A stretch of 64,000 bases of DNA, taken from a virus. The DNA is taken from positions 1-64,000 of the IMG/VR virus record IMGVR_UViG_3300043331_001086; one strand, given 5' to 3'. Both the position numbers and the translations under genes were made by a program. The number at the start of each line of letters is the position of its first letter. Within the stretch, counting starts at the first letter, position 1. This document shows, piece after piece, positions 6,043 through 47,834 of the stretch. The notes under the pieces are model-generated. The model ran no database searches and was not told the origin of the DNA. It saw only the letters and a program-made list of their open reading frames with translations.

Positions 6043-8265
6043 GTGGCGTTCCCCAGCCTCGTCGCTGAGGCGTCGTCCAAGACAGACACAGCGGGCACGT
6101 CGCACACCGTCGACATCCCCACCGGGTCGAACGGCCTGCTCGTCATGGCGTTCGGCACCCCGGGCAACTCGGCCCTGTCCGGCAACGACCTCGCGCTCTG
6201 GCGGCTCATCGGGACCGTGCAGGACTCGAACCCCGACGAGCGCCTCGCCGTGTACGCCCGGTCGGGGGCCGGGGTGTCCGGCACGATCACCGTCACCACC
6301 GCGGCGTCGGTCCGGTCGGCCCACCAGGTGTGGCGGTTCTCCGGCGCGACGATGCCCGAGCTCGTCGCGTTCGCGTCCGCCGCCGACGTGATCGACCCGC
6401 CCAACCTCGACCCGGCCGGGTTCGGGGCCGAGGACTTCGTGTGGCTCGCGCTCACGTGCCACACGAACGACGGCGCGGTCACCGACATCACCGGGTTCCC
6501 GTCCGGGTACACCGGCACCGGCGAGATCTCCACGGCGGGCACCGCGGCGGACGGGGTGGGGCTCGGGTGGGCCCGCCGGGACCTCAACGCGTCGGCCGAG
6601 AATCCGGGCGCGTTCACCGCGACACCGGGCGGGTCGCGGGCCACGGCCGTGACCCTCGCGATCCCACCCGCGGTCGCGGCGGCCCAGGTGACCCGCCTCG
6701 CAACCGGCGGCCGGGGCGCGGGCACGACCACGACGACGCCCACCTACCCGGCCGGGTCCACCGCGGCGGGGCGCCTCGCCGTCGCGCACCGGTCGATCAA
6801 GCCGTCGACCGCGACCGCCGCGGATGAGACCGGGTGGACGGATCGGCTCAACGTCACCGGCGGCACCGGCGCGTCGGCCGTCGACGCCGGGCAGACCCGG
6901 CTCAAGATCGACACCGACGAACTCGCCGGGGGTGAAGCCAACCCGACCTTCGACCAGGCGTCCACCCCGAACAGCGTGACGTCGGCCATCTGCGTGTTCG
7001 AGAAGGCCCCCTCGAGCGCGACGTGGGACATCGCCGTCACGAACGGCGACGACGCCACCCACGGGACCGGACGGTCGGCGACCGGCGGCACCCTCGCCTT
7101 GCAACCCGGCGACGTCGTGCTCGCCGTGTGCGCGTCGGACACCGACTCGGCGACCGCGTTCACGTCCCCGGCGATCACCGCGTCGGGCATCACGTTCGGC
7201 CCGACCACCCAGGCCCTTGCGCCTGGCGGGTCGGGCACCGGGAACGACGTCGGCTCGCATGTGTGGGAGGCCACCGTCATCGCCGGCACGGGCACGGTGG
7301 CCCCGTCCCTGTCGCTCACCGGCGGCGCGAACAACTGCGGGCAGACCGGGTTCGTCCGGCTCCGGGCCGTCGGCGGCGGGGCCGTGGACCTCGCGGGTTC
7401 CAGCAACGCCGTCGCCGCCCAGGCCGGGAACCTCGCGCTGGCGCTCCCCCTCGGCGGGGCGTCGGGCGCGGTCGCCGCGCAAGCCGGGGGCCTGGCCGTC
7501 GCCCGCCCGCTCGCCGGCGCGAGCTCGGCCGTCGCCCAGCAGGCCGGGGACCTCACCGTCGAGGAGGGGTTCACGACCCTGGCCGGCGCGGTCGAGGCCA
7601 TCGGCGCCCAGGCCGGGCACCTGATCGTCGCCCGTCCCCTGACCGGCGCGTCCGCCGCGGTCGCCGCACAGGTCGGCGCGCTCGCGGTGGCCCGTCCCCT
7701 GTCGGGCGCGGCCCTGGCCGTTGCGGCCCAGGCCGGTCACCTGCGCGTCGCCATCGGCCTGGTCGGCGCGTCGTCGGCTGTCGTCGCGATGGCCGGGGAC
7801 CTGTCCCTCGAGGGCGCCGTGGACCTCGAGGGGATCGTGGCTGTCGTCGCTGGTCAGGCGGGCGCGCTCGGCCTGGGCCGGTCCCTCGAGGGGCACGCGG
7901 AAGCGGTCGCTGCCATGGCCGGGGCGCTCACCGTCGACCGCGGGCTCGCGGGTCCGGTGCTCGTGGTCGCCGACCACACCGGCACCCTCACCCGGCAGCT
8001 GGGACTCGGCGGCCCTGTGGCCGCTGTGGCCGCCCTGGCCGGGGTGATGGGTGTCCAGTACCCCCTGACCGGTGCCGTGGCCGTGGTGGCCGACCTGGCC
8101 GGTCTGGTGGGCATCCTGCCCGCCGTCCTGACGGGGGAACACCTCGGCGCGGTGGGGGAGCGCGCCTACCTCGGCTCAAGCAACGGCACCGGGTACCTCG
8201 GCCGGGCCGGTGCCGGCACCCACCTCGGCGCGGTCACCACGCCACCCCCGATCGGCCCGGACTGA
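6043..8265 (+). CDS. large virion surface protein with twelve 20-aa repeats
   Basis: A 740-aa protein starting at a GTG. Residues ~1-215 and ~215-440 look like two beta-sandwich domains, each running from a SxxTDTAGTSHTV-like or TTTPTYPAG-like opening to a terminal strand. Residues ~447-690 are twelve imperfect copies of a ~20-residue unit with the core L.GAS.AVAAQAG.L.V. The C-terminus has short YLG/HLG motifs (GTGYLG, GTHLGAV). No enzymatic motif is visible. Position between the fibre-like protein and the SGNH esterase suggests an adhesin, fibre shaft or decoration protein. Repeat number is likely to vary between relatives. Confidence 0.7.
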   Translation: MAFPSLVAEASSKTDTAGTSHTVDIPTGSNGLLVMAFGTPGNSALSGNDLALWRLIGTVQDSNPDERLAVYARSGAGVSGTITVTTAASVRSAHQVWRFSGATMPELVAFASAADVIDPPNLDPAGFGAEDFVWLALTCHTNDGAVTDITGFPSGYTGTGEISTAGTAADGVGLGWARRDLNASAENPGAFTATPGGSRATAVTLAIPPAVAAAQVTRLATGGRGAGTTTTTPTYPAGSTAAGRLAVAHRSIKPSTATAADETGWTDRLNVTGGTGASAVDAGQTRLKIDTDELAGGEANPTFDQASTPNSVTSAICVFEKAPSSATWDIAVTNGDDATHGTGRSATGGTLALQPGDVVLAVCASDTDSATAFTSPAITASGITFGPTTQALAPGGSGTGNDVGSHVWEATVIAGTGTVAPSLSLTGGANNCGQTGFVRLRAVGGGAVDLAGSSNAVAAQAGNLALALPLGGASGAVAAQAGGLAVARPLAGASSAVAQQAGDLTVEEGFTTLAGAVEAIGAQAGHLIVARPLTGASAAVAAQVGALAVARPLSGAALAVAAQAGHLRVAIGLVGASSAVVAMAGDLSLEGAVDLEGIVAVVAGQAGALGLGRSLEGHAEAVAAMAGALTVDRGLAGPVLVVADHTGTLTRQLGLGGPVAAVAALAGVMGVQYPLTGAVAVVADLAGLVGILPAVLTGEHLGAVGERAYLGSSNGTGYLGRAGAGTHLGAVTTPPPIGPD
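7381..8112 (+). repeat. twelve tandem ~60-bp coding repeats
   Basis: In-frame degenerate repeats within the surface protein gene. Each unit encodes about 20 residues with a conserved AVAAQAG-like centre flanked by L.G and L.V. Units 1-6 are most alike and units 8-12 more diverged, as expected for repeats that expand and then drift. Confidence 0.75.
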
Positions 8266-20016: not shown

Positions 20017-23000
20017 GTGCCCGAGTGGAACCCGTCGGCCCCAAAGGTGGTCGGCCTCGAGTGGCGCGGGCACTACCCGTACGCCGATGTCCAGCTGGGC
20101 GGCGGGCAGACCCGGAAGGGGCAGCGGATCCGGGCCACGGCCACCGAGACGATCGGGGGCCTGCAGCTGGGCATCGCCCCGACCGTGGCCGGGTCGGCGC
20201 CGCTGTTCGCGCTGGTCGAGGTGTACGACGAGGACGACCTCATCGTGCCCCAGGCCGACATCGCCGTCTCGAAGCACGCCCCTAACGCGCATGGGACCGG
20301 CACCGGGATCGGGCTGTGGCGCACCCAGGCCGGGGGGTCCACGAACATTCACCTCTCGATCGATGACGCCGTGGTGTTCCCGCCGATCGGGACCGACTAC
20401 ATCCGGAACCTCAACGCGTCATCGACCACGCACTTTCACATGGACACCGGGTCGTTCCCGCTCACCCGGCGGGTCGGGCGGCTGCGCCTGCGGATGGTCA
20501 CGAAGTGCGGGCCCGGCTTCCGGGACATCTACTTCCGGCTCCTGCACGTCCCGTCCTCAACCCAGTATTTCCCGCCCGGCGACAAGATCAAGACCCACGG
20601 GTTCGGGCTCCTCTCCGAGATCGACCTCGGCGAGATCAACCCCGTCACGCTCCTGCCGTGGACACCCCTCGACGTCCGAGGGTTCGGCTCGGCGGCAAAC
20701 GTCTGGCAGGTCCAGATCACGGGTGCCGGGTCGGCCGCGAGCCCCCTACAGGTGCTCAGCCTCGAGCTCGAAGTCCAGTACGTCGTCGCCGAGAACCGGC
20801 TCGCGGTCGGCACGTGGCGCCGCCCCCCCATGACGACGACCACCCTGCCGGACCTCATCACGCTCGACGCGCTTGTGCGTCCTGACGGGTCGGGCGGCTG
20901 GACGAACGGCTTCTCGAAGGTCAACGGGGTCGACCACATCTACGTCCCTCGCCGGGCCCATGACCTCATGGTCGGCGGCAACCTCGCGCCCGCCACCGAC
21001 ATCCGCTGGCACTTCGTCGGCGGCAACGACTCGGCGGGATCCAACCCTCCCCCCGTCCCCGAGATGCGCTCGGCCGACGTCACGATCGCGGCGAACTCCT
21101 CGATGGTCGGCGCGGTGATGACCGCGACCCCGTTCACCGGTCACCTCGCCGGCACCGTCGTCCCCCTGGTCTCCGGGTCCGGGGCGGCGTCGGTCGACAG
21201 CCAGCCGTACATGGCACCCGGCGAGGCCGGGATGCTCGCGGTCGGGGACGACACGTCGATCCTCACGACGTTCGTCGCGCCGGCCAGCGCCGCGTACCTC
21301 GGCATTCGCTTCGTGGTCCGCCCACCCGCCGACGGCGAGGGCACCCTACGGGTGACCGTCCACTCGTGGAACGGGACGACGCCCGCCCTGGCGAACCCGC
21401 AGATCGGTGGCGTGCTCGACATCAGCGCCGCGGACCTGCTCGCCACCGCGGCGATGCCCAACATGCCCGCCGGGTACCGGGAGGTGTCCGGGTTCCTCGA
21501 CCTGGCCGCGTCGCTCACCGCGACCGGGGACTATTACGTCAAGCTCAACAAGATCGATGGCACCGCGGGCACCACATGGGATCTGCAACCCGTCGACACC
21601 GACGAGAACACGTCCCGGTCGTTCCAGGGGACCGCCGACGGGTTCCTCTACGCGCTCGATGACATCGGCGGCGGATCGATCGCGGCGACGGACCTCAACA
21701 TCGGGCTCGTGCTCTACCAGCAGCCCCCGCCCCCCACCGGGCTGGCCGCGTCGGTGGTCACCGACCCTCAAGTGTTCTTCTACGGCGGGTGCGTTGTATC
21801 CGGCGCCGGGTGCGACGTCGAGGCCATCGACGGGATTCACCTCAGCTGGGGGAGTCCGACCACCGGGTACGGCTCTCTGTTCGAGGCGTGGAACGTCCAG
21901 CGCCGAGACTTCGGGTCGGACCAGTGGTGGCAGATCGGTCACGGCATCAGCGCGGCCAACAAGTTCTTCACGGACTGGGAGCTCACACGCAACCGGCCGG
22001 CGAAGTACCGCGTGCGCACGGAGCTCACCGACGGGTCGTTCTCGGCGTGGGTGGAGACCGCCCCGGTCGTGCTCGACTCACCCGGCGCTGTGGGGGACGG
22101 GGCGTCGACCCCAGATCATCCCGACTTCGCTCTCGTGGACCTCGACTTCCGGGCCTACGTCGCCGCCGACGACTGGACCCCGGGTGGGTTCGGATCGATC
22201 ATCGCGGGTCAGTGGATCGCGCCATCCCAGCAGCAGTGGTACCTCGGCATCGACACGACCGGGCGGCTGGTGTTCGGCTACTCCACGACCGGCGCGAATA
22301 CCACCACGCGCACGGCGACAGTGGCGACCGGCTTCGCCAACGGGACGCCGCACTGGGTGCGGGTCACCTTCGACGCGAACAACGGTTCGGGCCAGCACGT
22401 CGTGACCTTCTACGGCTCCGACGACGGGGTGACATGGACGACGATCGGGGCCCCGGTCGTCACCGCGGGCACCGTGACGATGTTCAACTCGACGTCGCCG
22501 CTACAAGTTGGCCCGCTCCTCGGCTTCGCCGGTCAGGTCCGGTCCCTTGAGCTCCGGCCCCTCATCGACGGGACGATCGCCACGAACCCGGACTTCACGA
22601 TCCAGCCCGTCGGCGCGACCTCCCTCGTGGACTCCACCGGCAAGACGTGGACCGTCGTCGGCGCCGCTCAGCTGGTCGGCACCGGGGAGGGCATCGCGCA
22701 GAGCTACGACGCCGAGGTGCTGTTCGTGTCGAACGCGCGCCCGGACCTGAACGTCGCCTACACCTACGACCCCGAGGTGCCCGTCGAGTTCCTCGACCAC
22801 GAGAACGACCATCTGATGGTCGTGCAGGGGGCCCCGTTCCGGGTGGCGTTCCTCGACCCCCACAACCGGGGCATGGGCATCACCTACCGGATCCGGCCCG
22901 TGTTCGGCGAGCCCCCGGTGGACGAGATCGGGTTCCCCCTGCCGATCGAGGAGGTGTACGCGCCGCTGGTCAACATCGCCCGGTCACGCGGCGGGCGCAC

Positions 23001-23163
23001 CATCCCCTACGTGTGCGTGTTGGACTACGAGGGCGGCCGGCGGTTCGGGTACATCCGCCTCGGCAACGGGGCCCGCGACATCCTCGACGTCAACGTGCCC
23101 GGCTACGAGCTCAACGTCGCGGTCACCCCCCTCACCGACCGCCCGGCCGTCGTGGAGTTCTGA
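20017..23163 (+). CDS. minor tail protein with FnIII-like and LamG-like domains
   Basis: A 1048-aa protein starting GTG four bases after the tape-measure stop. The N-terminal ~280 residues are a beta-rich tail domain (GLEWRGHYPYADVQLGGGQT). Residues ~570-690 resemble a fibronectin type III-like module (PPTGLAASVV to SAWVETAPVVL). Residues ~700-855 look like a concanavalin A/LamG-type lectin (QWYLGIDTTGRLVFGYSTTG, PHWVRVTFDANNGSGQHVV). The C-terminal ~190 residues (VEFLDHENDHLMVVQ, RPAVVEF) are another structural domain. Probably a distal tail or receptor-binding protein that contacts cell-wall sugars. Confidence 0.7.
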   Translation: MPEWNPSAPKVVGLEWRGHYPYADVQLGGGQTRKGQRIRATATETIGGLQLGIAPTVAGSAPLFALVEVYDEDDLIVPQADIAVSKHAPNAHGTGTGIGLWRTQAGGSTNIHLSIDDAVVFPPIGTDYIRNLNASSTTHFHMDTGSFPLTRRVGRLRLRMVTKCGPGFRDIYFRLLHVPSSTQYFPPGDKIKTHGFGLLSEIDLGEINPVTLLPWTPLDVRGFGSAANVWQVQITGAGSAASPLQVLSLELEVQYVVAENRLAVGTWRRPPMTTTTLPDLITLDALVRPDGSGGWTNGFSKVNGVDHIYVPRRAHDLMVGGNLAPATDIRWHFVGGNDSAGSNPPPVPEMRSADVTIAANSSMVGAVMTATPFTGHLAGTVVPLVSGSGAASVDSQPYMAPGEAGMLAVGDDTSILTTFVAPASAAYLGIRFVVRPPADGEGTLRVTVHSWNGTTPALANPQIGGVLDISAADLLATAAMPNMPAGYREVSGFLDLAASLTATGDYYVKLNKIDGTAGTTWDLQPVDTDENTSRSFQGTADGFLYALDDIGGGSIAATDLNIGLVLYQQPPPPTGLAASVVTDPQVFFYGGCVVSGAGCDVEAIDGIHLSWGSPTTGYGSLFEAWNVQRRDFGSDQWWQIGHGISAANKFFTDWELTRNRPAKYRVRTELTDGSFSAWVETAPVVLDSPGAVGDGASTPDHPDFALVDLDFRAYVAADDWTPGGFGSIIAGQWIAPSQQQWYLGIDTTGRLVFGYSTTGANTTTRTATVATGFANGTPHWVRVTFDANNGSGQHVVTFYGSDDGVTWTTIGAPVVTAGTVTMFNSTSPLQVGPLLGFAGQVRSLELRPLIDGTIATNPDFTIQPVGATSLVDSTGKTWTVVGAAQLVGTGEGIAQSYDAEVLFVSNARPDLNVAYTYDPEVPVEFLDHENDHLMVVQGAPFRVAFLDPHNRGMGITYRIRPVFGEPPVDEIGFPLPIEEVYAPLVNIARSRGGRTIPYVCVLDYEGGRRFGYIRLGNGARDILDVNVPGYELNVAVTPLTDRPAVVEF

Positions 23164-23166
23164 CCG

Positions 23167-24243
23167 ATGGCGTGGCCGCCGTCCACCGACGACCTCCTCG
23201 ACCTCGTTGCCGCCGACGTCTACCAGCGCGTCGACACCTACCGGTTCGACCTCACCGACCACGGCGGCGACGTGATCGGCCAGCTGACCCCGGACTTCGA
23301 GAGCGCCCCGCGCATGACGAACGACACGGGCCGGTCGGTGATGCGCACGATCGACAACCTGCAGCTGCCTGCCTCCGAGACCCGTCACATCGACGGGATC
23401 AAGGACCGGTGTGTTGTCCACATGGTCCTCGAGAACGGTGCCGAGGAGCGGCTCGGCGAGTTCCTGTGGGGGGACGACACCCACCCGGTCCGGGAGTGGG
23501 GCCACGAGCATCACAGCGTCCTCGTGGACCTCCTCCACCCGCTCACCTCGAAGTCCGGTCGGACCTCGGGGAGCAAGGTCGGGCAGAACGTCGTGCAGCG
23601 CGCCGTCGACCACGCCCGCCTGGTCGTGTCCGCCGTGGTGATCGACGCGGTGCCCGACCCGACCACCCTCGTGACACCGCTCGGGTGGACCCCGGACGAC
23701 ACCTACCAGGCCATCATCAACGACCACCTCAAGACGGTCGGCTACCTGCCCTGCTACTACGACCGGCACAGCCGCCTGCAGATCCGCCCGGTGCCCGACC
23801 CGGCGGTGAGCCAAGCCACCCTGTTCTACGGAGACGCTGGCCGGATCGAACGCGACTCGATCACCGAGTCCGACGACAACCTCAAGGCCCCGAACGAGTT
23901 CGTCGCTTACGACTCGTCCGCCCAGGGCACCCCCCGGATCGGCCGGTACCGGATCCCCGCCGACGCCCCCCACTCCGTCGAGAACCGGTCCTACGTGTGG
24001 CGGCACGTCGAAGGAATCCAGGGCCTGGCATCCCAGGCCGCCGCGGACAAGGCCGCCCGCGCCATGGCGACCCTCGACCGCGAATCCACCTACGCGTGGC
24101 GCACGTGGACCTCGGCAGCCGACCCCCGCCACGACACGTTCGACATCATCGACTTCTACGGGGAGAACTACCTCGAGGTGCGCTGGACGCTTGAGCTCGC
24201 GCCCGGCGGCCGGATGACACACCAGGCGAGGAGGGTCTACTGA
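23167..24243 (+). CDS. minor tail protein (tail hub/baseplate type)
   Basis: A 358-aa protein beginning MAWPPSTDDLLDLVAADV. Segments RFDLTDHGGDVIGQLTPDFE, VVHMVLENGAEERLGEFLWG and a C-terminal YLEVRWTLELAPGGRMTHQA fit the family of actinophage minor tail proteins that follow the large tail protein and resemble tail-hub proteins. No enzymatic motif is visible. Start ATG three bases after the previous stop. Confidence 0.7.
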   Translation: MAWPPSTDDLLDLVAADVYQRVDTYRFDLTDHGGDVIGQLTPDFESAPRMTNDTGRSVMRTIDNLQLPASETRHIDGIKDRCVVHMVLENGAEERLGEFLWGDDTHPVREWGHEHHSVLVDLLHPLTSKSGRTSGSKVGQNVVQRAVDHARLVVSAVVIDAVPDPTTLVTPLGWTPDDTYQAIINDHLKTVGYLPCYYDRHSRLQIRPVPDPAVSQATLFYGDAGRIERDSITESDDNLKAPNEFVAYDSSAQGTPRIGRYRIPADAPHSVENRSYVWRHVEGIQGLASQAAADKAARAMATLDRESTYAWRTWTSAADPRHDTFDIIDFYGENYLEVRWTLELAPGGRMTHQARRVY

Positions 24244-24244
24244 G

Positions 24245-25006
24245 ATGTCGGTCACCCAGTCCGAGCGCGACACCATGATCCAGGCCGTCATGGGAGAACT
24301 GGTCCCGATCCTCGAACGCGGCATCGGGAGCACCGTCGCCGCCGCCGTCGATCGGGCACCGACATGGGCCGTGGTCCCCGGCAAGATCCACGCCACGAAC
24401 GGGCCCGTCGCCGAGGTGGAACCCGACGACACGCCCGGGGAGACGATCGAAGCCATCCGGCTCGATGACTTCCAAGGGGTCTCCGGTGGGGTCATCGGCT
24501 CCCGGGTCCGGACGCTGCTGCTGCGCATCCCACCGTCAGGGATCTACTGCCTCGGCGCGATCCCCGAGGATCGGCCCGAGGTGGACGCCACGAACCCGTC
24601 GTTCTTCCGGTCGGTCAGCGACGACATCCCGCGGGGGGCAGGGGTGCTCACCGACATGACGACCACCGCGGACCTCACCGGCGGGTACCTCTACTCGGTC
24701 CACGCCCACGGCGAGGTGGGCTTCGGGACCGCGAACGTTCCCTACCGCGGGGAGCTCGACCAGGACGGCACCATCATCGGTAGCTTCTGGCGTTTCGCCG
24801 ATCCGGACATCGCCGGCGCGAGCAGCAACGAGGGATTCGACTCTCAGGTCCGCTTCGTCGCCGCCGAGGACATCGAGGGGTCGGTGTTCACCGTCGGGTT
24901 CGGCGCCGGATCAGGTGGCATTCAGCAACTCCTCGGCAGCGCCGGGGCGCCACGCACTCTCTCGGTCACCTGCCTCGGGCCGGCGCGCGGGGTCGCCGCC
25001 CCGTGA
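24245..25006 (+). CDS. minor tail protein
   Basis: A 253-aa protein. The N-terminal helix (TMIQAVMGELVPILERGIGS) is followed by an OB-like domain (VPGKIHATNGPVAEVEPDD, GVIGSRVRTLLLRIPPSGI). The C-terminal half is beta-rich and ends in AGAPRTLSVTCLGPA. This arrangement recurs in the last minor tail protein of actinophage tail operons. It is the last clear tail gene before the sugar cassette. Confidence 0.65.
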   Translation: MSVTQSERDTMIQAVMGELVPILERGIGSTVAAAVDRAPTWAVVPGKIHATNGPVAEVEPDDTPGETIEAIRLDDFQGVSGGVIGSRVRTLLLRIPPSGIYCLGAIPEDRPEVDATNPSFFRSVSDDIPRGAGVLTDMTTTADLTGGYLYSVHAHGEVGFGTANVPYRGELDQDGTIIGSFWRFADPDIAGASSNEGFDSQVRFVAAEDIEGSVFTVGFGAGSGGIQQLLGSAGAPRTLSVTCLGPARGVAAP

Positions 25007-25009
25007 CCC

Positions 25010-25024
25010 AGCGCGCAGTAGCGT
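25010..25024 (+). promoter_or_regulatory. GCGCGC box plus TAGCGT, leaderless promoter of the oxygenase gene
   Basis: AGCGCGC at 25010-25016 is followed after two bases by TAGCGT (25019-25024), and the ATG at 25032 begins seven bases later. Both themes of this genome, the GCGCGC box and the leaderless spacing, meet here, so the sugar cassette has its own promoter. Confidence 0.5.
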
Positions 25025-25031
25025 TGAGCCG

Positions 25032-25871
25032 ATGACCCTCACCCTCAACGACCTGTCGGTCCCGGCCCCGCCGCCGGGCCCCGCCGACTGGAACGACGAA
25101 GGGGTCGCGGTCCACCGAGGCCTGATCCCTCCCACCGTCATCGACCCCTACCGAGCCGCGTGGAAGGACGCGCACGGGTTCCGTGAAGTGGTGTACCCCC
25201 CAGACGCTGTCGGCGTCCCAGGGAGCCACACAGGCCGACTGGTGGCAACCCAGCCCCACGGGTGGAACTACGCGACGCCGTACCGGGATGTCCCGGAGCT
25301 CCTCGACCTCGTGTGTGACCCCGCGCTGGCCGAGATCCTCGAGGGGCTCCTCGGTGAACCGGCCGGGGTGCACCTCAACCTGTCGGGGTGGGTGACCACC
25401 GAGCGGGACTGGCACCAGGACACCTACCTGAACCCGCCCGAGGTGGGTGACGCCTACGCCGCGGTGTGGATCGCGCTCGGCCATGTCACCGTCGAGTCGG
25501 GGCCGTTCCAGTACGTGCCCGGGTCCCACCGCTGGCACACCCTCACCCGGGACCTCATCGCCCGCCACGTCGACACGACCGACCCGAACTGGCCCAAGCA
25601 CACCGAGACGATCCTCACCCCGCTGGTCGAGAAGGAGATCGCGGAGCGCGGCGACGAGGTGGTCAGCCACCTGCCCATGTACGGGGACGTGCTCATCTGG
25701 CACGGGCGGCTCTACCACCGCGGGTCGCGGGCCCAGCTGCCCGGCGCGTACCGGCCAGCGCTGATCGCCCACTACTCGGGGATTCACCACCGGCCCGACA
25801 TGCCCATGGCCGTCCAGCACCCGGCGGGCGGCTGGTACTTCCCCATTGACGGCCACCAGCCCGTGCGCTGA
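25032..25871 (+). CDS. PhyH-type Fe(II)/2-oxoglutarate dioxygenase
   Basis: A 279-aa protein of the phytanoyl-CoA dioxygenase superfamily. The metal triad is visible: H128-Q-D130 in WHQDTYLNP and H229 in WHGRLYHRG, with R241 in YRPALIAHY as the 2-oxoglutarate anchor. The segment GPFQYVPGSHRWH is typical of PhyH enzymes. It would hydroxylate or epimerise a small substrate using O2 and 2-oxoglutarate. It heads a cassette of sugar-related genes, so a glycan or nucleotide-sugar substrate is likely. A DNA-base substrate is a less likely alternative. The start is set by the leaderless promoter pattern. Confidence 0.8.
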   Translation: MTLTLNDLSVPAPPPGPADWNDEGVAVHRGLIPPTVIDPYRAAWKDAHGFREVVYPPDAVGVPGSHTGRLVATQPHGWNYATPYRDVPELLDLVCDPALAEILEGLLGEPAGVHLNLSGWVTTERDWHQDTYLNPPEVGDAYAAVWIALGHVTVESGPFQYVPGSHRWHTLTRDLIARHVDTTDPNWPKHTETILTPLVEKEIAERGDEVVSHLPMYGDVLIWHGRLYHRGSRAQLPGAYRPALIAHYSGIHHRPDMPMAVQHPAGGWYFPIDGHQPVR

Positions 25872-26134
25872 TGGGGTGGCGCGAGGACCGGGCCCGTCAC
25901 CTGTCTCCGGTGACGAGGGACCCGGACGGGTTCATCCGGGCCAAGGGCGCGACCGTCACCCCAGGGCGTCTGCGCGGGCTCCGGCGCCTGGTGCATGTCC
26001 ACCGGTGGGACGGGAGCACCGGGCCCGTCGACCCCGTGACCCGCGGGCCGGTGGTCGCGCCAGGCCGGTGCATCACGATCGAACGGTGCCGGTGCGGCGC
26101 CGAGAAAGAGGAGACCTCATGGGTGAGCATGTGA
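25871..26134 (+). CDS. hypothetical protein in sugar cassette
   Basis: An 87-aa basic protein with ATG overlapping the oxygenase stop and 16 bp overlap with the methyltransferase gene. It has a beta-rich body (RLVHVHRWDGSTGPV, CITIERCRCGAEKE) with three cysteines that could bind a metal ion. The coding pattern is consistent with its neighbours. No family recognised. Confidence 0.6.
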   Translation: MGWREDRARHLSPVTRDPDGFIRAKGATVTPGRLRGLRRLVHVHRWDGSTGPVDPVTRGPVVAPGRCITIERCRCGAEKEETSWVSM

Positions 26135-26700
26135 ACGTCGGCTGTGGACCGCACCGGGCCCCGCCCCCGTGGGTGAACCTCGACGTCCACGAGGGCGACG
26201 GGGTGTTCCCCGACGTGCTGGTCGAGGACGTCAGCCGCCCACTCGCCGCCTACGCCGACGGCACCGTCAGCCGGGTCTACATGGGCCACGTCCTCGAGCA
26301 CGTGCCCTGGCCCGAGGTGGGGGCGTTCCTGGCCGACATCGCGCGGGCACTCCACCCGGCCGGGGAACTCTGCGTGGTCGGCCCCGACCTCCTGCGCACG
26401 ATCGAGGGGTGGCACGGGGGCACCGAACCGTGGCAGCTGGTCGAGTCGGTGATGGAGTCCCCGTGGCCCTACGCGAACCCGGACCAGGACGGCGAGACGT
26501 GGGCGTGCGCGAACGCGTGGACGAACGCCCGGCACTGGTGGAACTGCTACGAGGCCCGGGTCGTGTGGGCCCTCGAAGCCACCGGGCTGTTCGCCGAGGT
26601 GAAGCCCCGCACCCTCGACGCCGAGAGCCTCGGCACGTGGCCGGTCGTCGCGTACACGCCATGGCAGTGCGCGGTCACCGGGGTCCGGGCCGATGCGTGA
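26119..26700 (+). CDS. class I SAM-dependent methyltransferase
   Basis: A 193-aa protein. Motif I is VNVGCGPHRAPPPWVNLD, with the acidic end of strand 2 in LDVHEGDG. MGHVLEHVPWPEVGAFL is the motif IV/post-IV region that small sugar or lipid methyltransferases share, and LHPAGELCVVGPD follows. Next to a cytidylyltransferase and glycosyltransferases it most likely methylates a sugar or other small moiety. It lacks an NPPY or PC motif, so it is not a DNA methylase of the usual kinds. Confidence 0.8.
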   Translation: MGEHVNVGCGPHRAPPPWVNLDVHEGDGVFPDVLVEDVSRPLAAYADGTVSRVYMGHVLEHVPWPEVGAFLADIARALHPAGELCVVGPDLLRTIEGWHGGTEPWQLVESVMESPWPYANPDQDGETWACANAWTNARHWWNCYEARVVWALEATGLFAEVKPRTLDAESLGTWPVVAYTPWQCAVTGVRADA

Positions 26701-27103
26701 ACCCCGCTCGGTGCTGACGATCGGGACCTTCGACGTCCCCCACCTCGGCCACGCCTACCTGTTCCGGGAGTGCGAGCGGTTCGGGGCCTTGACCGTCGGG
26801 CTCAACACCGACGCGTTCGTAGAGAGCTACAAGGGTCACGCCCCGGTGTTCCCATGGCACGCCCGCCGGGACCTCATTGCCCGCATGGGGTACCCCGTCG
26901 TCCCCAATCACACGGCGGGGCGCGACCTCATCGACCGGATGCGCCCGCACGTCCTCGTGATCGGCTCGGACTGGGCCCGCCGGGACTACTACGCGCAGAT
27001 CGACGTCGACCAAGACTGGCTCGATGAGCACCGGATCACGATGGTGTACGTCCCCCGGGTCGAGGGCCTGTCCACCACCGAACTCAAGGCGCGGCTCGGG
27101 TGA
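26693..27103 (+). CDS. cytidylyltransferase-family nucleotidyltransferase
   Basis: A 136-aa protein, the length of TagD-like glycerol-3-phosphate cytidylyltransferases. The nucleotide-binding motif GTFDVPHLGH spans residues 11-20 with the catalytic H17-x-x-H20, and the C-terminal LSTTELKARL corresponds to the ISSTxI signature. It would couple an alcohol or sugar phosphate to CTP (or ATP), releasing pyrophosphate. In this cassette it probably activates a building block for the two downstream glycosyltransferases. Overlaps both neighbours slightly. Confidence 0.8.
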   Translation: MREPRSVLTIGTFDVPHLGHAYLFRECERFGALTVGLNTDAFVESYKGHAPVFPWHARRDLIARMGYPVVPNHTAGRDLIDRMRPHVLVIGSDWARRDYYAQIDVDQDWLDEHRITMVYVPRVEGLSTTELKARLG

Positions 27104-27624
27104 CCGTCACCGCCGTGGTCGTCGGTCACGCGGACCCCGCCGGCATGGCCCGCCAGGTCCGGGACATGACGACCCAGACCCGCCCGGCCGACGAGGTGAT
27201 CGTGCTCGGGTGTTGCTTCGAGTCCACCGCGTTCCCGGGTGCCGACGCGGCCGTCGTCGCCGCCCACGTTGAGGACTGGGGCCACCGGCTCTGCGACATG
27301 GGCATCCGCCTCGCGTCCCAGCGGTACGTGCTCCTCGCCGCCTCCGACGACCTCTACGCCCCCACGTTCCTCGAGACCATGGCCGGGCGCGAGGCCGACG
27401 TGATCTACGGGGACTACTGGACGCACCTCCTGCCCGGCGTGATCGTGTCGCGGCCCGAGGTGGGCAAGATCACGCGGGGCAGCTTCCTCGTGCGCACCGA
27501 GCTCGCGCAGCGGGTCGGGTACCGGCACCGCGAGTACCACGCCGATGGCCTGTTCGTGGACGACCTCATGGCCGCCGGCGCGGTCGCCGAGCACGTCCCC
27601 GGCGTGCTCTACTGGCACCGATGA
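27100..27624 (+). CDS. glycosyltransferase family 2-like (GT-A) protein
   Basis: A 174-aa protein with GTG overlapping the previous stop. The N-terminal VVVGHADPAGMARQVRDM and DEVIVLGC strands are followed by a short DxD-like motif in LLAASDDLYAP, then YGDYW. This is the GT-A nucleotide-sugar fold in minimal form. It is short for the family (usually 230-300 aa), so it may be a reduced enzyme or a partner of the next glycosyltransferase. Confidence 0.7.
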   Translation: MTVTAVVVGHADPAGMARQVRDMTTQTRPADEVIVLGCCFESTAFPGADAAVVAAHVEDWGHRLCDMGIRLASQRYVLLAASDDLYAPTFLETMAGREADVIYGDYWTHLLPGVIVSRPEVGKITRGSFLVRTELAQRVGYRHREYHADGLFVDDLMAAGAVAEHVPGVLYWHR

Positions 27625-27634
27625 GGAGGGCGGC

Positions 27635-28738
27635 GTGAAGGTCTGGATCTACCCCCTCGACCCGTGGGGGTGCGGGCACTACCGGATGTTCTGGCCGGGG
27701 CACGCCGTCGCCGAGGCCGACGACCTCGACGTCGACGCGCTGGTGATCACCCCGGACCTCCGGAAGGTGACTCTCAACCTCGGCTTGCAGGGCGAGGTGT
27801 CCTCCGAGGAGTTCCCCGCGGTCGAGGGTGACGTCGTGGTGTTCCAGCGGCCGACCGGCGCGTTCATGCCCCGGGTCGTGCAGCTGCTACAGGCCCGGGG
27901 TGTCGCGGTGGTCATCGACATGGACGACGACCTCTCCTGCATTCACCCGCGCAACCCGGCGTTCGCACTCCACCACCCGCGCGACGGCCGGTCCCACCAC
28001 TCGTGGAAGCACGCCGCGGAGACGTGCCGGGTCGCCACGCTCGTGACCGTCACCACCCCCGCGCTCGCCCAGCGGTACGGGGCCCATGGCCGGGTGGCCG
28101 TGATCCCGAACTTCGTGCCCCGCAAGTACCTCGACGTCGACCACGAGGACTCGGCGGACATCGGGTGGGGCGGCGCCGTGTTCTCGCACCCCGACGACCT
28201 GCAACAGGTCGGCCACGCGATCCAGCGCCTGGTCGCCGAGGGGCATGTGTTCCGGACCGTCGGCGAGCCCGACGGGGTAGGGGCCGCGCTCGGTCTCGAC
28301 CGCGACCCACCGTCGACCGGCCCCGTGCCCATGGACCAGTACCCGGCGTCGATCGGCACGTTCGGGATCGGCATCGCGCCCCTCGCGGACACCCAGTTCA
28401 ACCGGGCGAAGTCCCGTCTCAAGCCCCTCGAATACAGCGCCGTGGGTGTCCCCTGGGTGGGCTCGGACCTGCCCGACTACCGGGCCTACCACACCCAGGG
28501 ATGCGGCGTGATCGTGCGCCGTCCCCGCGACTGGGAACGGGTGCTCCGGTCCCTGGCCCGCGACCCTGCCCGCCGGGTCGAGCTCTCCGCGGTGGGGCGC
28601 GAGGTGGCCGCCCGGAACACCCTCGAGGGGAACGCCTGGCGTTGGGCCGAGGCGTGGACCCGTGCCGCGGACCTCGCGCCGTCGGTCCGCCCGCCGGCAC
28701 CCACTCGCACCGAGTGGTCGCTGCCCGGTCTGCGGTGA
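27635..28738 (+). CDS. glycosyltransferase family 4-like (GT-B) protein
   Basis: A 367-aa protein with GTG start after GAGGAGGG. The N-terminal Rossmann domain opens with KVWIYPLDPWGCGHYRM, and VVIDMDDDLSCIH and VAVIPNFVP are typical of phage GT4 enzymes. The C-terminal donor-binding domain carries KSRLKPLEYSAVGVPWVGSD, where the E of the LEY segment corresponds to the second E of the GT4 EX7E motif. Expected to transfer a nucleotide-activated sugar to virion proteins or another acceptor. It closes the sugar cassette. Confidence 0.8.
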   Translation: MKVWIYPLDPWGCGHYRMFWPGHAVAEADDLDVDALVITPDLRKVTLNLGLQGEVSSEEFPAVEGDVVVFQRPTGAFMPRVVQLLQARGVAVVIDMDDDLSCIHPRNPAFALHHPRDGRSHHSWKHAAETCRVATLVTVTTPALAQRYGAHGRVAVIPNFVPRKYLDVDHEDSADIGWGGAVFSHPDDLQQVGHAIQRLVAEGHVFRTVGEPDGVGAALGLDRDPPSTGPVPMDQYPASIGTFGIGIAPLADTQFNRAKSRLKPLEYSAVGVPWVGSDLPDYRAYHTQGCGVIVRRPRDWERVLRSLARDPARRVELSAVGREVAARNTLEGNAWRWAEAWTRAADLAPSVRPPAPTRTEWSLPGLR

Positions 28739-28764: not shown

Positions 28765-28770
28765 TACGAT
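28765..28770 (+). promoter_or_regulatory. TACGAT -10 element, leaderless start of lysis operon
   Basis: TACGAT lies seven bases before the GTG at 28778. A CGCGCGCT box occurs 12 bases upstream (28745-28752). This site probably drives the lysis operon. Confidence 0.45.
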
Positions 28771-28777
28771 GCGTGCC

Positions 28778-29062
28778 GTGCCACCCACCGACGACCCCGG
28801 ATCCCCGTTCGGCCCCACCGTCACACCCGCCGACGCGGACGCCCTCGACGCGCTCGCCGACGCCGGGATCGGCGAAGGGGACTTCGGCGAGGATCACGCC
28901 ACCCCCGCAGACCTCCTCGAACTCCACGAGGTGCTCGAATGGGAGACCGCCGTCGGAGGGGGCATCGCGGTCCCGGCCGACGGCACCCTGTCCCCACCCA
29001 TCGTGGGTGACGGGACCGGCGAGGCCCTCCCCCCGGTCGAGGAGGACGACGATGCCTCGTGA
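28778..29062 (+). CDS. acidic hypothetical protein before endolysin
   Basis: A 94-aa acidic protein (frame could start at the ATG at 28769). GTG at 28778 is preferred because it sits seven bases after TACGAT. The protein is rich in Asp, Glu, Pro and Gly with one helix (ADLLELHEVLEWETAV) and no membrane segment. It overlaps the endolysin start by 11 bp. Function unknown; possibly a lysis or late-gene accessory. Confidence 0.6.
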   Translation: MPPTDDPGSPFGPTVTPADADALDALADAGIGEGDFGEDHATPADLLELHEVLEWETAVGGGIAVPADGTLSPPIVGDGTGEALPPVEEDDDAS

Positions 29063-29855
29063 CCTCGGCGGCGGTGTCCAGCTGATCCTGCGGTCGGAGT
29101 GGGGTGCCCGCGCTCCTCGGAGCCGTACCCCGTTCACTGCCGACCGCGGGTCCACGGCCCACTGGGAAGGGCCCCACATGGGTAGCTTCCCCCACACCAG
29201 TTGCGCGTCGAAGGTCCGAGGCATCCAGAACTTCCACATGGACGGCCAGGGATGGTCGGACATCGCCTACACGGCGCTGGTGTGCCCCCACGGGTTCGTG
29301 TTCGAGGGCCGGTGGGTCGGGATCCGCACCGCGGCCAACGGGACCACCGCCGGCAACGACGGCTGGTACGCGATCTGCTACCTCGGCGGCGAGGGCGACG
29401 TGTTCACGTCCGCGGCGAAGCGGGCGTTCGATGCGGCCTTCGACTACCTCGACGCCAGCGGCGGCGCCGGACCCGACGAGAACTGCCACCGCGACCACAA
29501 GCCCACCGCCTGCCCAGGCGACACGATCTGCGCGTGGGTACGCGCCGGGTCGACGCCACCCGGCTCGCTTCCCCCACCCGTTCCCGAGGAGGACGACATG
29601 CCCCGACCCGTGCTCTGCCGAGACAGCGCGAACAAGCTGTGGCTGCTCGACGGCCAGACCCGGCGCTTCATCCACGACGACGACGTGGACGAGGTGCGCC
29701 GGTTCTTCAACCCTCAGCAGGACTCCGACGGGCGTGCCTTCACGGACCTGCCCGACGGGTTCATCCACAATCACCCCGACATCGGCGTGATCGCGACCAC
29801 CTCCCTGATCCTCGGGGAGACCGCCGAGGACGTCGACACCCTCGTCGGCGAGTAG
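29052..29855 (+). CDS. N-acetylmuramoyl-L-alanine amidase endolysin
   Basis: A 267-aa endolysin of the amidase_2/PGRP fold. Zinc ligands are predicted at H37 (TAHWEGP), H146 and C154 (HRDHKPTACPGD); GWSDIAYTALVCPHG is the conserved core. It cleaves the amide between N-acetylmuramic acid and L-alanine in peptidoglycan. After a Pro-rich linker (GSLPPPVPEEDD) a C-terminal ~90-aa domain (LCRDSANKLWLLDGQTRRF) probably binds the cell wall. No signal peptide, so release depends on the holin-like proteins encoded next. Confidence 0.85.
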   Translation: MPRDLGGGVQLILRSEWGARAPRSRTPFTADRGSTAHWEGPHMGSFPHTSCASKVRGIQNFHMDGQGWSDIAYTALVCPHGFVFEGRWVGIRTAANGTTAGNDGWYAICYLGGEGDVFTSAAKRAFDAAFDYLDASGGAGPDENCHRDHKPTACPGDTICAWVRAGSTPPGSLPPPVPEEDDMPRPVLCRDSANKLWLLDGQTRRFIHDDDVDEVRRFFNPQQDSDGRAFTDLPDGFIHNHPDIGVIATTSLILGETAEDVDTLVGE

Positions 29856-44527: not shown

Positions 44528-44844
44528 CCTACCGGACCGGCGACCAGTGGATCGGCCGCATCGCCCGCTCGACCCCGCTCTCGTACGACGGGCTCACCGA
44601 CCGGGGCGGGACGGTGGTCATCACGTCGGACCTGTGGCCGAACATGCCCCTCCCCGGGAGCCGGGTGACAATCACCGTCGATGAGTTGCCCCCACGCTGG
44701 CAGACCGACACCGACTCGTCCGGGGACCTCTACCTGCTCTACGAGGGGACGCGCGTCGCCCAGCTGTATCTACCCCTCAAGGACGACGCCGCCGAGGTGC
44801 AGAAAGTGCTCGACGTCCTGAACGCGAAGGATCCCCGTGACTGA
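44524..44844 (+). CDS. 106-aa hypothetical protein in modification operon
   Basis: ATG overlaps the methylase stop. A beta-rich protein (GTVVITSDLWPNMPLPGSRV, DLYLLYEGTRVAQLYLPL) ending in a helix (AEVQKVLDVLNAKD). Overlaps the DUF3050 gene by 8 bp. No family recognised. Confidence 0.6.
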   Translation: MTYRTGDQWIGRIARSTPLSYDGLTDRGGTVVITSDLWPNMPLPGSRVTITVDELPPRWQTDTDSSGDLYLLYEGTRVAQLYLPLKDDAAEVQKVLDVLNAKDPRD

Positions 44845-45604
44845 CCTCCGCGACCACCTCGACGTCGCCCGGAAGGTGGTCGTCGGCCACCCCCTCTACG
44901 ACGACCTCACCGACCTCCACGCGCTCCGGATCTTCATGGACCACCACGTCTGGGCGGTCTGGGACTTCATGTCGCTGCTCACCGAGCTACAGCGCCGGGT
45001 CACCTGCACCACCGTCCCGTGGGTGCAACCCGCCGCGCCGGCGACCGCGGTCCGCCTGGTCAACGAGATCGTGCTCGGCGAGGAGTCCGACGACGTGCCC
45101 GGCTACGGGATCACCTCGCACGTGGACCTCTACCGGGCCGCGATGCACGAGGCCGGCGCGTCGACCACCCCGCTCGACGCGTTCCAGGCTGCCGTACGGG
45201 TCGCCACGTTGCGCCCCCTGCGGCTCGCCGCCCTCGCGGGGGTACTGGGGGCCCCCCTCGGTGCCGAGCGGTTCCTGGCGGCCACCATGGCCGTGGTGCA
45301 GGCCGGGACCCTGGCCGACATCGTGGGCGCGTTCGCGTTCGGCCGTGAGCAGCTGATCCCCGACCTGTTCCGCCCCCTCCTCGCGAACCCCGCCGCCCGC
45401 CTGTTCGGGGTGTACCTCGAACGCCACGTCCTCATCGACGCCGAGGAGCACGGCCCCGCGGCCGAGCACCTGGTCGACAGCCTGCTCGCGTCGGCCGACC
45501 GTGAGCGTGCCTATCAGGCCGGGCTCGTGGCCCTCGGGGCCCGGTCCGAGCTCTGGTCCAGCGTGCAGCGCGCGATCCATGACGCCCGCCGGGTGGGTCA
45601 GTAG
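44837..45604 (+). CDS. DUF3050-type heme-oxygenase-like protein
   Basis: A 255-aa mostly helical protein with GTG start. It matches DUF3050: HPLYDDLTDLHALRIFMDHH, VWAVWDFMSLLTELQRRVTC, VRLVNEIVLGEESDDVPGYG and HVDLYRAAMHEAGA. Conserved His and Glu residues in these helices would suit a di-metal centre in a heme-oxygenase-like bundle. The reaction is unknown. In this position it may act on a nucleotide, base or cofactor for DNA modification (inference). Confidence 0.75.
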   Translation: MTDLRDHLDVARKVVVGHPLYDDLTDLHALRIFMDHHVWAVWDFMSLLTELQRRVTCTTVPWVQPAAPATAVRLVNEIVLGEESDDVPGYGITSHVDLYRAAMHEAGASTTPLDAFQAAVRVATLRPLRLAALAGVLGAPLGAERFLAATMAVVQAGTLADIVGAFAFGREQLIPDLFRPLLANPAARLFGVYLERHVLIDAEEHGPAAEHLVDSLLASADRERAYQAGLVALGARSELWSSVQRAIHDARRVGQ

Positions 45605-45607
45605 CGT
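45602..45607 (+). promoter_or_regulatory. TAGCGT -10 element, leaderless start of ParB-like gene
   Basis: TAGCGT overlaps the DUF3050 stop codon and lies seven bases before the ATG at 45615. The stretch CAGTAGCGTTG is identical to the promoter of the PhyH-type gene at 25019. Confidence 0.5.
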
Positions 45608-45614
45608 TGCGGCG

Positions 45615-46307
45615 ATGACCGACACCGACCGGCCCCCGCGGTGGCAGGAGTACCTGTCGCTGGACGAACTCCTCGAACGGCGCGACCCGCGCAACCCGAA
45701 GGACCACGCCGACCGCGACATCCGGAAGTCGATGGGCCGGTTCGGGTACACCGAGCCGGTCATGGTCGATGAGCGCACCGGGTTCCTCGTCGCCGGGCAC
45801 GGCCGGGTCGACAACCTCGCGGCACGGCGCGCCGCCGGGGAGAACCCACCTGACGGGATCGTGGACCACCCCGAGCGCGGCTGGACGGTCCCCACGAACC
45901 GAGGCTGGGCGAGCCGGTCCGACGAGGAAGCCGCCGCCTACCTGGTGGCCGCGAATCAGCTGACCATCAAGGGCGGCTGGAAACCGGACCCCTTCGCCGC
46001 GATCCTCGCCGAGCTCCGGTCCACCGACACCGGGCTCGAGGGGATCGGCCTGTCACCCACCGAGGCCGCCGACATCCTCGCCGCGTACGGGCCCGTGCCC
46101 ACGCTGGACGAACTCGCCGACCAGATCGGTGACCCCGAGCCGGAGGACTTCTGGCCGGTCCTGCGGCTCAAGGTCTCACCGGAGACGAAGGCCGAGTTCG
46201 AGCGGTGGCTCGACACGACCGGGCAGGTGACCGCGGGCGACGACGCCGTGATGGCCGGTCTCCTCCGGATCGCGACAGCGGCCCTGGCCGACGCGGAGAC
46301 CTCGTGA
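45615..46307 (+). CDS. ParB-like N-terminal domain protein, possible DpdB-like partner
   Basis: A 230-aa protein. Residues ~10-110 form a ParB/Srx-like domain: RRDPRNPKDHADRDIRKSM, GYTEPVMVDERTG, and the phosphate-binding loop VAGHGRVDNLAARRA. AAYLVAANQLTIKGGW is typical of modification-linked ParB proteins. The C-terminal 100 residues are acidic and helical. It is followed by a DpdA-like gene; bacterial 7-deazaguanine systems pair DpdA with a ParB-fold DpdB. Partnership here is inferred from order. Alternatives: transcription regulator or methylase partner. Confidence 0.7.
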   Translation: MTDTDRPPRWQEYLSLDELLERRDPRNPKDHADRDIRKSMGRFGYTEPVMVDERTGFLVAGHGRVDNLAARRAAGENPPDGIVDHPERGWTVPTNRGWASRSDEEAAAYLVAANQLTIKGGWKPDPFAAILAELRSTDTGLEGIGLSPTEAADILAAYGPVPTLDELADQIGDPEPEDFWPVLRLKVSPETKAEFERWLDTTGQVTAGDDAVMAGLLRIATAALADAETS

Positions 46308-47242
46308 CGGCCCCGATCGCGGTCCTGCTCTCCTACCACTTCTGGCGGGACCTCGACCTCGATGAGGCCCTCGGCCTGTGGCCCGAGCACCCGCTCGTGT
46401 TCGCCGACTCGGGCGCGTTCTCCGCGTCGACCGTCGGCGCCGAGGTGGACGTGCACGCCTACGCCGAGTGGCTCGACCGGTGGCGCCACCACTTCGCCGT
46501 CGCCTGCACCCTCGACGTCATCGGCGATGAGGTGGCGACCGAGACGAACACCCGGATCCTCGAAGGCCACGGCCATCGGGTGCTCCCGGTGTTCCACACG
46601 AACGAGCCCTGGGACTACCTCGAACGCCTGGTGGCCGAGTACCGGTACGTCGGGGTCGGGGGCATGGTCCCCTACAAGATGCGAGAGAAGGCGCTCCTGC
46701 GCTGGCTGGTGCAGTGCTTCCGGGTCGCCGAGGGGACCGGCACCGTGTTCCACGGGCTCGGGCTCACGAACCCCCGGATGCTGGCCCCCCTGCCCTTCTA
46801 CTCGGTCGACTCGTCGTCGTGGTGCGCGGGCCTGATCTACGGCCGGATCCACCTCTACGACGGGCTCACCGGCAAGATCCGCCCGGTGCAGGCCGGGGAC
46901 CGCGGCGCGCTCCTGCGCGGCGACGAGCTCCGGGCCGTCGGCCTCGACCCCTACGAGGTGGCGACCCCGTACTACGGCCGCCGGGACCCCGACGGCGAGA
47001 AGCCCGCCGAGGTGTACCGCCGGCAACACACCGAGGAAGGCGCCGCGAACCTCGTGGCCGCCGCGGCCCAGGCCGAGTGGTGGCACGCCCGCCACGCCCC
47101 CGTGTCCGTCGACGGGATGCCCGACGGCCCGGTCACGTTCCTCGTCGCGATCAACCCGATGGACCTCGGCCGGATCCGCCAGCACTTCTACCCGACCACC
47201 GACCAGGAGACACCCGCACATGGGACAGCTGCCCCCGCATGA
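46304..47242 (+). CDS. dpdA: DpdA-like DNA transglycosylase (TGT family)
   Basis: A 312-aa protein with GTG start coupled to the ParB-like gene. It follows the TGT-fold DpdA pattern: LVFADSGAFSA with D35 as a candidate catalytic Asp, VACTLDVIGDEVATETN, VLPVFHTNEPWDYLERLV, YVGVGGMVPYK and VFHGLGLTNPRML, then PFYSVDSSSW. Family members replace guanine in DNA with a 7-deazaguanine such as preQ0. FolE is encoded immediately after. Zinc-site cysteines of bacterial TGT are not obvious, as is common in phage DpdA. The assignment is by motif reading only. Confidence 0.7.
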   Translation: MTAPIAVLLSYHFWRDLDLDEALGLWPEHPLVFADSGAFSASTVGAEVDVHAYAEWLDRWRHHFAVACTLDVIGDEVATETNTRILEGHGHRVLPVFHTNEPWDYLERLVAEYRYVGVGGMVPYKMREKALLRWLVQCFRVAEGTGTVFHGLGLTNPRMLAPLPFYSVDSSSWCAGLIYGRIHLYDGLTGKIRPVQAGDRGALLRGDELRAVGLDPYEVATPYYGRRDPDGEKPAEVYRRQHTEEGAANLVAAAAQAEWWHARHAPVSVDGMPDGPVTFLVAINPMDLGRIRQHFYPTTDQETPAHGTAAPA

Positions 47243-47834
47243 CCTCGACCCCTCGAAGCTCGAAGCCGGCACCCGGCTGATCCTCGAGGGGCTCGGCGTC
47301 GACCCCACCACCCACGACGAGGTGGTCGCGAACACCCCCCGCCGGGTGGCCGACCTCTACACCGAGATGATCAACCCCGCGTGGTGCGACGTGGACGAGG
47401 TGTTCAAGACCTTCGAGCCGCCCGAGGCCTGGCGCACCGGCGACATGGTGATGGTCCACGACGTCCACTACGTGTCGATGTGCGAGCACCACCTCGCCCC
47501 CAGCTTCGGCGTCGCGCACGTCGCGTACATCCCAGACCTCAAGGTCGTCGGCTACTCGAAGCTCAAGAAGGGGCTCAACTACGTCGCCCGCGGACCCCAG
47601 CTGAACGAGCGCATCCTCGCCGACACCCTCGACATCATCGAGAAGCAGGTCGAGCCGAAGGGGTGCGCGCTCGTGTTGCAGTCGACGCACTGCTGCATCG
47701 CGCTCCGCTCCTCGGCGCCGTCACAAGAGGTGGTGACGGTGCAAGGGTTCCGCGGTGACCTCGCCACCGACCCCTGGCGACGGGAGTTCACCGACACGCT
47801 GATCGGTCGGAAGCCCCTGTTCCTCGGGGCGTGA
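47220..47834 (+). CDS. folE: GTP cyclohydrolase I
   Basis: A 204-aa enzyme of normal family length. NTPRRVADLYTEMINP, VSMCEHHLAPSFGVAHVAYI (zinc Cys and His), GYSKLKKGLNYVARGPQLNE and STHCCIALR (second zinc Cys) are in order. The usual MxxRG after the last Cys reads IALRS here. It converts GTP to dihydroneopterin triphosphate, the first step toward folate or toward 7-deazaguanines (preQ0). Next to DpdA the second role is more likely. Overlaps dpdA by 23 bp. Confidence 0.85.
   Translation: MGQLPPHDLDPSKLEAGTRLILEGLGVDPTTHDEVVANTPRRVADLYTEMINPAWCDVDEVFKTFEPPEAWRTGDMVMVHDVHYVSMCEHHLAPSFGVAHVAYIPDLKVVGYSKLKKGLNYVARGPQLNERILADTLDIIEKQVEPKGCALVLQSTHCCIALRSSAPSQEVVTVQGFRGDLATDPWRREFTDTLIGRKPLFLGA

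Follow-up and report, generated by a model that had tools for sequence, protein, structure and literature searches.

What does a soil phage build with a set of sugar-tailoring genes placed between its tail genes and its lysis genes? The question is raised by six genes (positions 25032–28738) in a 64,000-nt stretch of DNA, referred to here as the window, that lies within the 68,819-base IMG/VR virus record IMGVR_UViG_3300043331_001086. Their products include an oxygenase of the PhyH family, a methyltransferase (MT), a nucleotidyltransferase (NT) and two glycosyltransferases (GTs) of types GT2 and GT4. We propose that the product of this cassette decorates the virion and that the six genes are the form taken in this phage by a modular slot at the tail end, a reading to which we give a probability of roughly 0.55. 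The genes are as follows.

25032..25871, + strand: PhyH-family Fe(II)/2-oxoglutarate oxygenase, 279 aa (PF05721 profile, invariant iron-site residues, model)
25871..26134, + strand: small protein, 87 aa, with no relative in profile or sequence searches
26119..26700, + strand: class I SAM-dependent MT, 193 aa (PF08241, PhyH-linked clade)
26693..27103, + strand: cytidylyltransferase-like NT of the TagD/RfaE-II superfamily, 136 aa (PF01467)
27100..27624, + strand: short GT2-type (GT-A fold) GT, 174 aa (fold, weak similarity to slot family F3)
27635..28738, + strand: GT4-type GT, 367 aa (phrog_7162, conserved slot member)

A decoration slot behind the tail genes

The setting of the cassette was compared among viral contigs by way of the GT4 protein, which matched the glycosyltransferase family PHROG 7162 (E 1.3e-37), fell short of curated Pfam cut-offs (23.2 against 25 for PF13524, 17 against 27 for PF13692) and gave no match in a sequence search of solved structures. 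Relatives were noted in 61 IMG/VR viral loci, 50 of them distinct after 11 near duplicates (6-mer sharing above 0.7) had been dropped. Tail genes were counted as relatives of the window's upstream gene tailB or members of the tape-measure family F6 (a name that comes from one member), with the unannotated family F11 set aside. Of the 46 loci with at least 5 kb of upstream sequence, 35 had such a gene upstream on the strand of GT4, whereas none of the 40 loci with at least 5 kb of downstream sequence had one on that side. These counts indicate that the order of tail genes, decoration genes and end of module is a rule rather than a chance neighbourhood, and they link GT genes to structural genes as expected of a phage virion glycosylation system.

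The genes that fill the slot varied. At least one annotated sugar or MT family was present in 30 of the 50 distinct loci and two or more in 25, the most frequent being GT2 (F3, 21 loci), an NAD-dependent epimerase (F7, 19 loci) and a C-methyltransferase-type family (PF08421/PF08484, F15, 11 loci), followed by Methyltransf_24 (F19, 9 loci), MTs of the window type (8 loci) and PhyH (3 loci). Each of these family names comes from one scanned member, families F10, F17, F30, F31, F49 and F76, some of them unannotated, were left out of the partner count, and the gene lists are approximate, genes having been called with a simple GC-frame caller. A WhiB-like family (F1, named from sequence rather than by profile) in 19 of the 50 loci suggests actinobacterial hosts, and the phages that carry the slot are apparently phages of actinobacteria.

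In loci L003, L005 and L010/L011 the order was tailB, further genes, PhyH, a P-loop kinase, an MT and GT4, and the PhyH proteins of L003, L005 and L010 formed one clade with that of the window (support 100/99). Thus PhyH and GT4 have been kept together while the genes between them were exchanged, and the kinase of the relatives and the NT of the window could be alternative supplies of an activated donor. As judged from gene content and order, the tail module has at its 3' end a slot in which decoration genes are swapped. The original prediction, made from the letters of the window, had described a cassette for sugar decoration placed among late genes, and the comparative context supports this description well.

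The oxygenase and its methyltransferase

The oxygenase scored 66.6 bits with the PhyH profile PF05721 (E 5e-18), for which the cut-off is 22. Residues H128, D130, H229 and R241 were invariant in 26 PhyH sequences; we take the HxD...H residues to be the iron ligands and the arginine to be the 2-oxoglutarate binder of this family, and on that basis the iron site is intact. Aspartate at the iron site argues against a halogenase, an identity that is unlikely for this sequence. In structural comparisons the predicted model (pLDDT 88) gave Z scores of 18.5 for proline hydroxylase H11, 18.3 for GriE, 18.0 for both EctD and phytanoyl-CoA hydroxylase, 17.4 for the carbocyclase SnoK and 14.9 for EvdO2, while EvdO2, presumably an enzyme that acts on oligosaccharides, was the best solved match by sequence (E 3e-4). 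Taken together, the predicted fold and the sequence matches do not discriminate between an amino acid and a sugar as the substrate. No PhyH match was obtained by tblastn against the phage collection, and a literature search that combined PhyH with phage, glycosyltransferase and methyltransferase turned up only a giant-virus paper, a result for which no absence in print is claimed beyond that search.

Linkage of the oxygenase to an MT was evident beyond the window. The MT of the cassette matched PF08241 (24.4 bits against a cut-off of 21.2) and fell inside a clade of PhyH-linked MTs (100/98), in a tree for which the program warned of long branches. In a separate set of viral contigs the MT comes after PhyH: of 19 distinct loci with PhyH (looser duplicate removal, L003 included), 11 had an MT no more than 600 nt away, and one ended just past PhyH. 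The contigs with this pair may be aquatic, a suggestion that has the thin grounds of their moderate GC. The domain PF00535, a GT2 domain, was present in 4 and missing from 18 of 22 PhyH records (L003 and 21 of the 26 loci found with PhyH, a set used for GT2 and capsid counts); thus the target of PhyH is not necessarily a sugar, and the PhyH-MT pair can occur without this GT2 domain. The oxygenase step of the original prediction therefore stands in part, in that the enzyme is a PhyH protein with an intact iron site, while a sugar is only a possible substrate in view of the nearness of its fold to amino-acid hydroxylases and of these 18 records. Pairing of an oxygenase with an MT in a decoration cassette is an unusual combination.

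Several further observations concern PhyH neighbourhoods. In favour of virion decoration, the order on contig L069 was major capsid, MT, TauD oxygenase and PhyH, with PhyH three genes from the capsid gene; a general rule that PhyH lies next to the capsid gene found no support, a capsid profile being present in only 5 of the 22 PhyH records and near PhyH in few. Locus L107, a bacterial (Rhodospirillales) contig, carried a methyltransferase-PhyH fusion at 6197-7840 with another methyltransferase just before it. Among the 17 PhyH loci that were distinct under a stricter count, 7 (L067, L069, L070, L079, L081, L087 and L088) had a ribonucleotide-reductase family gene in the neighbourhood.

Could PhyH and MT instead have a metabolic role of their own, acting as a pair on some small molecule (an amino acid or a nucleotide, for example), and stand ahead of the GT genes by chance? 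The free amino-acid hydroxylases among the nearest folds, the 18 records without PF00535 and the reductase genes near PhyH are consistent with such a pair. Against it, the reductase was not found in the GT4-linked PhyH records G000, G001, G003 and G005 (reductase and phrog_887 searches covered 10 records), though PhyH keeps the GT4 slot in all four, and gene overlaps tie PhyH and MT to the GT genes. An independent pair is distinctly unlikely.

The nucleotidyltransferase and the short GT2

The NT matched PF01467 (37.4 bits against a cut-off of 21), and its best solved relatives were TarD and TagD (E 2e-9), followed by 5x3d, which we take to be FrbH, and ethanolamine-phosphate cytidylyltransferase. 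Its HxGH motif (HLGH) was intact and GxDW was present, while RVEGLSTT differed at two places from RTxGISTT, a motif that is said, in an excerpt of the source, to be unique to cytidylyltransferases (PMC8262930). The same excerpt describes two substrate lysines in TagD (PMC8262930). When residues were counted by hand, TagD Lys44 and Lys46 aligned with K48 and H50 of the NT, and replacement of Lys46 makes glycerol-3-phosphate uncertain as the substrate. The protein missed the cut-offs of both the TagD equivalog TIGR01518 (43.2 against 165.4 bits) and RfaE-II TIGR02199 (51.2 against 181.5 bits). A CDP-linked precursor, as originally predicted, is plausible from the motifs and from the TarD and TagD relatives, whereas the curated profiles assign the protein to neither TagD nor RfaE-II. 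Close relatives in viral contigs were confined to three loci, none with a GT4 match. In phages of Streptomyces and of Arthrobacter, NT relatives adjoin GT genes, a linkage that favours the decoration reading.

No Pfam family was matched by the GT2 protein at E 0.1, and a tblastn search of the phage collection gave no match. By Foldseek, its AlphaFold2 model (pLDDT 86.5) was nearest to the glycosyltransferases WrtF (E 1.5e-8, prob 1.00, TMq 0.75), TarP and SpsA, all of which are presumably of GT-A fold.

The likeness of the NT to the glycerol-3-phosphate cytidylyltransferases TarD and TagD, together with the resemblance of the GT2 fold to TarP among others, raises the alternative that the cassette alters the host envelope during infection (e.g., a teichoic-acid-like or other surface glycan) and thereby blocks superinfection or adsorption of progeny to debris. 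Late expression beside lysis genes would fit such a role. On the other hand, searches of Pfam and PHROG with the cassette proteins gave no family of membrane or flippase type, the slot goes with the tail genes, and genes for superinfection functions are more usually early. We consider modification of the host envelope unlikely; it and the independent PhyH-MT pair are the main rivals to virion decoration.

DNA modification

A competing idea in the original prediction was that sugar is attached to the phage DNA, by C5-methylation of cytosine, oxidation and glycosylation. The genome encodes a C5-cytosine methylase (PF00145, about 43.0-44.5 kb) besides the Fe/2-oxoglutarate oxygenase and the GTs, and oxidation of 5-methylcytosine by phage TET enzymes and DNA glycans made by GTs have been reported (Burke 2021 and Pyle 2024, as cited in other papers). 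These features were compared among 39 GT4 records, a hand-picked set made up of the window's own record and those of 38 of the 61 loci, from which duplicates and the majority of short contigs had been removed. TET_JBP was not found in the window's own record, which may be incomplete, and was present in 2 of the 39, matches that indicate that the search works. The C5-methylase was present in 15 of the 39 records and in none of the closest records with PhyH and GT4 (G001, G003 and G005, which may be fragments). Moreover, the oxygenase of the window is of PhyH type, its solved structural matches being mostly named for small-molecule substrates, and the cassette genes sit with tail genes rather than with DNA genes. 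The idea of a DNA-linked sugar is weakened by these findings and is very improbable.

The two TET_JBP-bearing records were those of L023 and L037. In the window, a relative of the DpdA-like queuine tRNA-ribosyltransferase (46307-47239, phrog_887, E 1e-44) overlapped a GTP cyclohydrolase I gene (47220-47831, PF01227, E 2e-39). DpdA and GTP cyclohydrolase I belong to the 7-deazaguanine pathway, and the DNA of this virus probably carries 7-deazaguanine and not glycosylated cytosine. The three closest PhyH and GT4 records gave no match to phrog_887. At 44837-45604 lay a gene for a DUF3050 protein (E 1e-63) with weak Haem_oxygenas_2 similarity, a possible second metal-dependent oxygenase.

Gene layout, neighbours and a candidate promoter

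All six genes are contiguous and coding, with GC3 of 0.89-0.96 compared with 0.45-0.74 in the other two frames, and they end where the original prediction had placed them. The coupling that it described was also evident, successive genes overlapping by 1, 16, 8 and 4 nt up to GT2; GT2 and GT4 are 10 nt apart, and GAGGAGG forms the ribosome site ahead of GT4. The gene identities likewise held, that of GT2 by fold and that of GT4 by PHROG; the 87-aa protein had no relatives in Pfam, PHROG or locus-family searches. Placement between tail and lysis genes was borne out by the flanking genes.

20017..25006, + strand: tailA, tailB (phrog_1887 tail protein, by PHROG match) and tailC, upstream, the slot anchor
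28769..29062, + strand: 97-aa acidic protein between cassette and endolysin, with no Pfam or PHROG match
29052..29855, + strand: amidase-type endolysin (phrog_1493, E 9e-21; phrog_822)

None of 50,697 phage records came near to matching the whole record, the cassette gave no megablast match in the phage collection, and tailB gave only weak matches there to Staphylococcus and unassigned entries. No tRNA genes were noted within the window, and repeats in the cassette were limited to chance-like imperfect matches. A DUF5131 protein (E 1e-96) is encoded at 58598-59620.

25019..25024, + strand: TAGCGT hexamer that ends 7 nt upstream of the PhyH ATG, a candidate leaderless -10 element

In a leaderless actinobacterial gene the -10 element is expected at about this position. 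A TANNNT hexamer was also present 6 nt upstream of the PhyH ATG in L003, L005 and L010, compared with a background of 43 of 3039 ATGs with TANNNT 6-7 nt upstream in high-GC loci; the four PhyH loci are related and thus cannot be counted as independent observations. TAGCGT recurred with identical spacing at 45602, 7 nt before the ATGACC start of the gene at 45615; this gene, which together with the hexamer spans 45602-46304, resembled a ParB-type protein by eye, with no Pfam match. GCGCGC, put forward with TAGCGT in the original prediction, was rejected as a -35 element: it lies 2 nt from TAGCGT, so that the two hexamers cannot form a -35/-10 pair, and it is commonplace (76 copies against about 99 expected). 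A sigma-70 scan returned no sites. Of that promoter, only the TAGCGT half is retained, as part of a candidate leaderless start at PhyH for the cassette.

Proposed function

In the mechanism that we infer for virion decoration, the cassette would be expressed late along with the tail genes and also from its own leaderless start at PhyH. The NT would activate a phosphorylated sugar or polyol, most likely using CTP; PhyH would hydroxylate, and MT would then methylate, one building block; and GT2 and GT4 would build a short glycan and transfer it to a virion surface protein of tail or capsid. The benefit to the phage may be altered adsorption or protection of the particle.

A number of findings weigh against this proposal. 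Virion modification is a prediction from gene content and order, and 20 of the 50 distinct GT4 loci had no annotated partner gene in the covered flanks. PF01467 was present in 1 of the 39 GT4 records, that of the window itself; absence from the other 38 indicates that the NT is not core to the slot. Groups of NT and GT genes in cultured phages sit between replication and terminase genes or elsewhere rather than behind tail genes. The GT2 is short and weakly similar to the slot GT2 family F3 (best E 8e-5), most PhyH records lack PF00535, and the nearest structural matches of the PhyH model include enzymes that hydroxylate proline, leucine and ectoine (Z 18.5-18.0).

A more specific and highly doubtful version of virion decoration is that a polyol-phosphate or sugar, activated with CDP and bearing added hydroxyl and O-methyl groups, forms a teichoic-acid-like coat on the particle, with PhyH and MT as a mobile oxidise-then-methylate module common to aquatic and soil phages. 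The wider interest of the locus lies in a slot that recurs downstream of the tail genes in many uncultured phages and in which sugar-tailoring enzymes are swapped. If virion decoration is correct, the virion glycans of these phages would be chemically richer than plain sugars, with consequences for adsorption, host range and antibody recognition of particles. Cultured Streptomyces and Arthrobacter phages carry parts of the cassette and are open to test.

Comparison with known systems

Virion glycosylation in mycobacteriophage Che8 and its relatives was reported by Freeman et al. 2023, as described in PMC11256854 and PMC12619734. The present cassette resembles that system, known here by description only, in phage-encoded GTs, an actinobacterial phage and a virion protein as acceptor (here proposed), and differs in the addition of an oxygenase and an NT. 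No Mycobacterium phages were among the matches to GT4, PhyH, NT, MT or GT2 in phage protein searches. A literature search on hypervariable slots found nothing, and absence in print is not claimed beyond that search.

In Streptomyces phage KimJongPhill, relatives of MT (29%, E 7e-14) and GT4 (26%, E 4e-19) are neighbours and are accompanied by a UDP-glucose dehydrogenase, but the group adjoins terminase and no PhyH or NT is annotated in that stretch. In Streptomyces Stanwilliamsviridae and Arthrobacter phage Racecar an NT relative stands directly behind GT genes (i.e., GT-GT-NT operons), with a GT4 relative also nearby in Racecar; these operons differ in lying outside the tail-lysis slot, and PhyH had no counterpart in the phage collection. 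The NT shares with TagD and TarD the fold family, HxGH, a near-complete R-x-E-G-x-S-T-T and GxDW, but has histidine in place of TagD Lys46 and scored far under the TagD equivalog cut-off. Phage TET/C5-cytosine hypermodification likewise brings together a C5-methylase, an Fe/2-oxoglutarate oxygenase and GTs in one genome, with the difference that the oxygenase of the window is PhyH and TET was not found. Viewed beside these systems, the cassette stands as a further form of phage-encoded glycosylation module.

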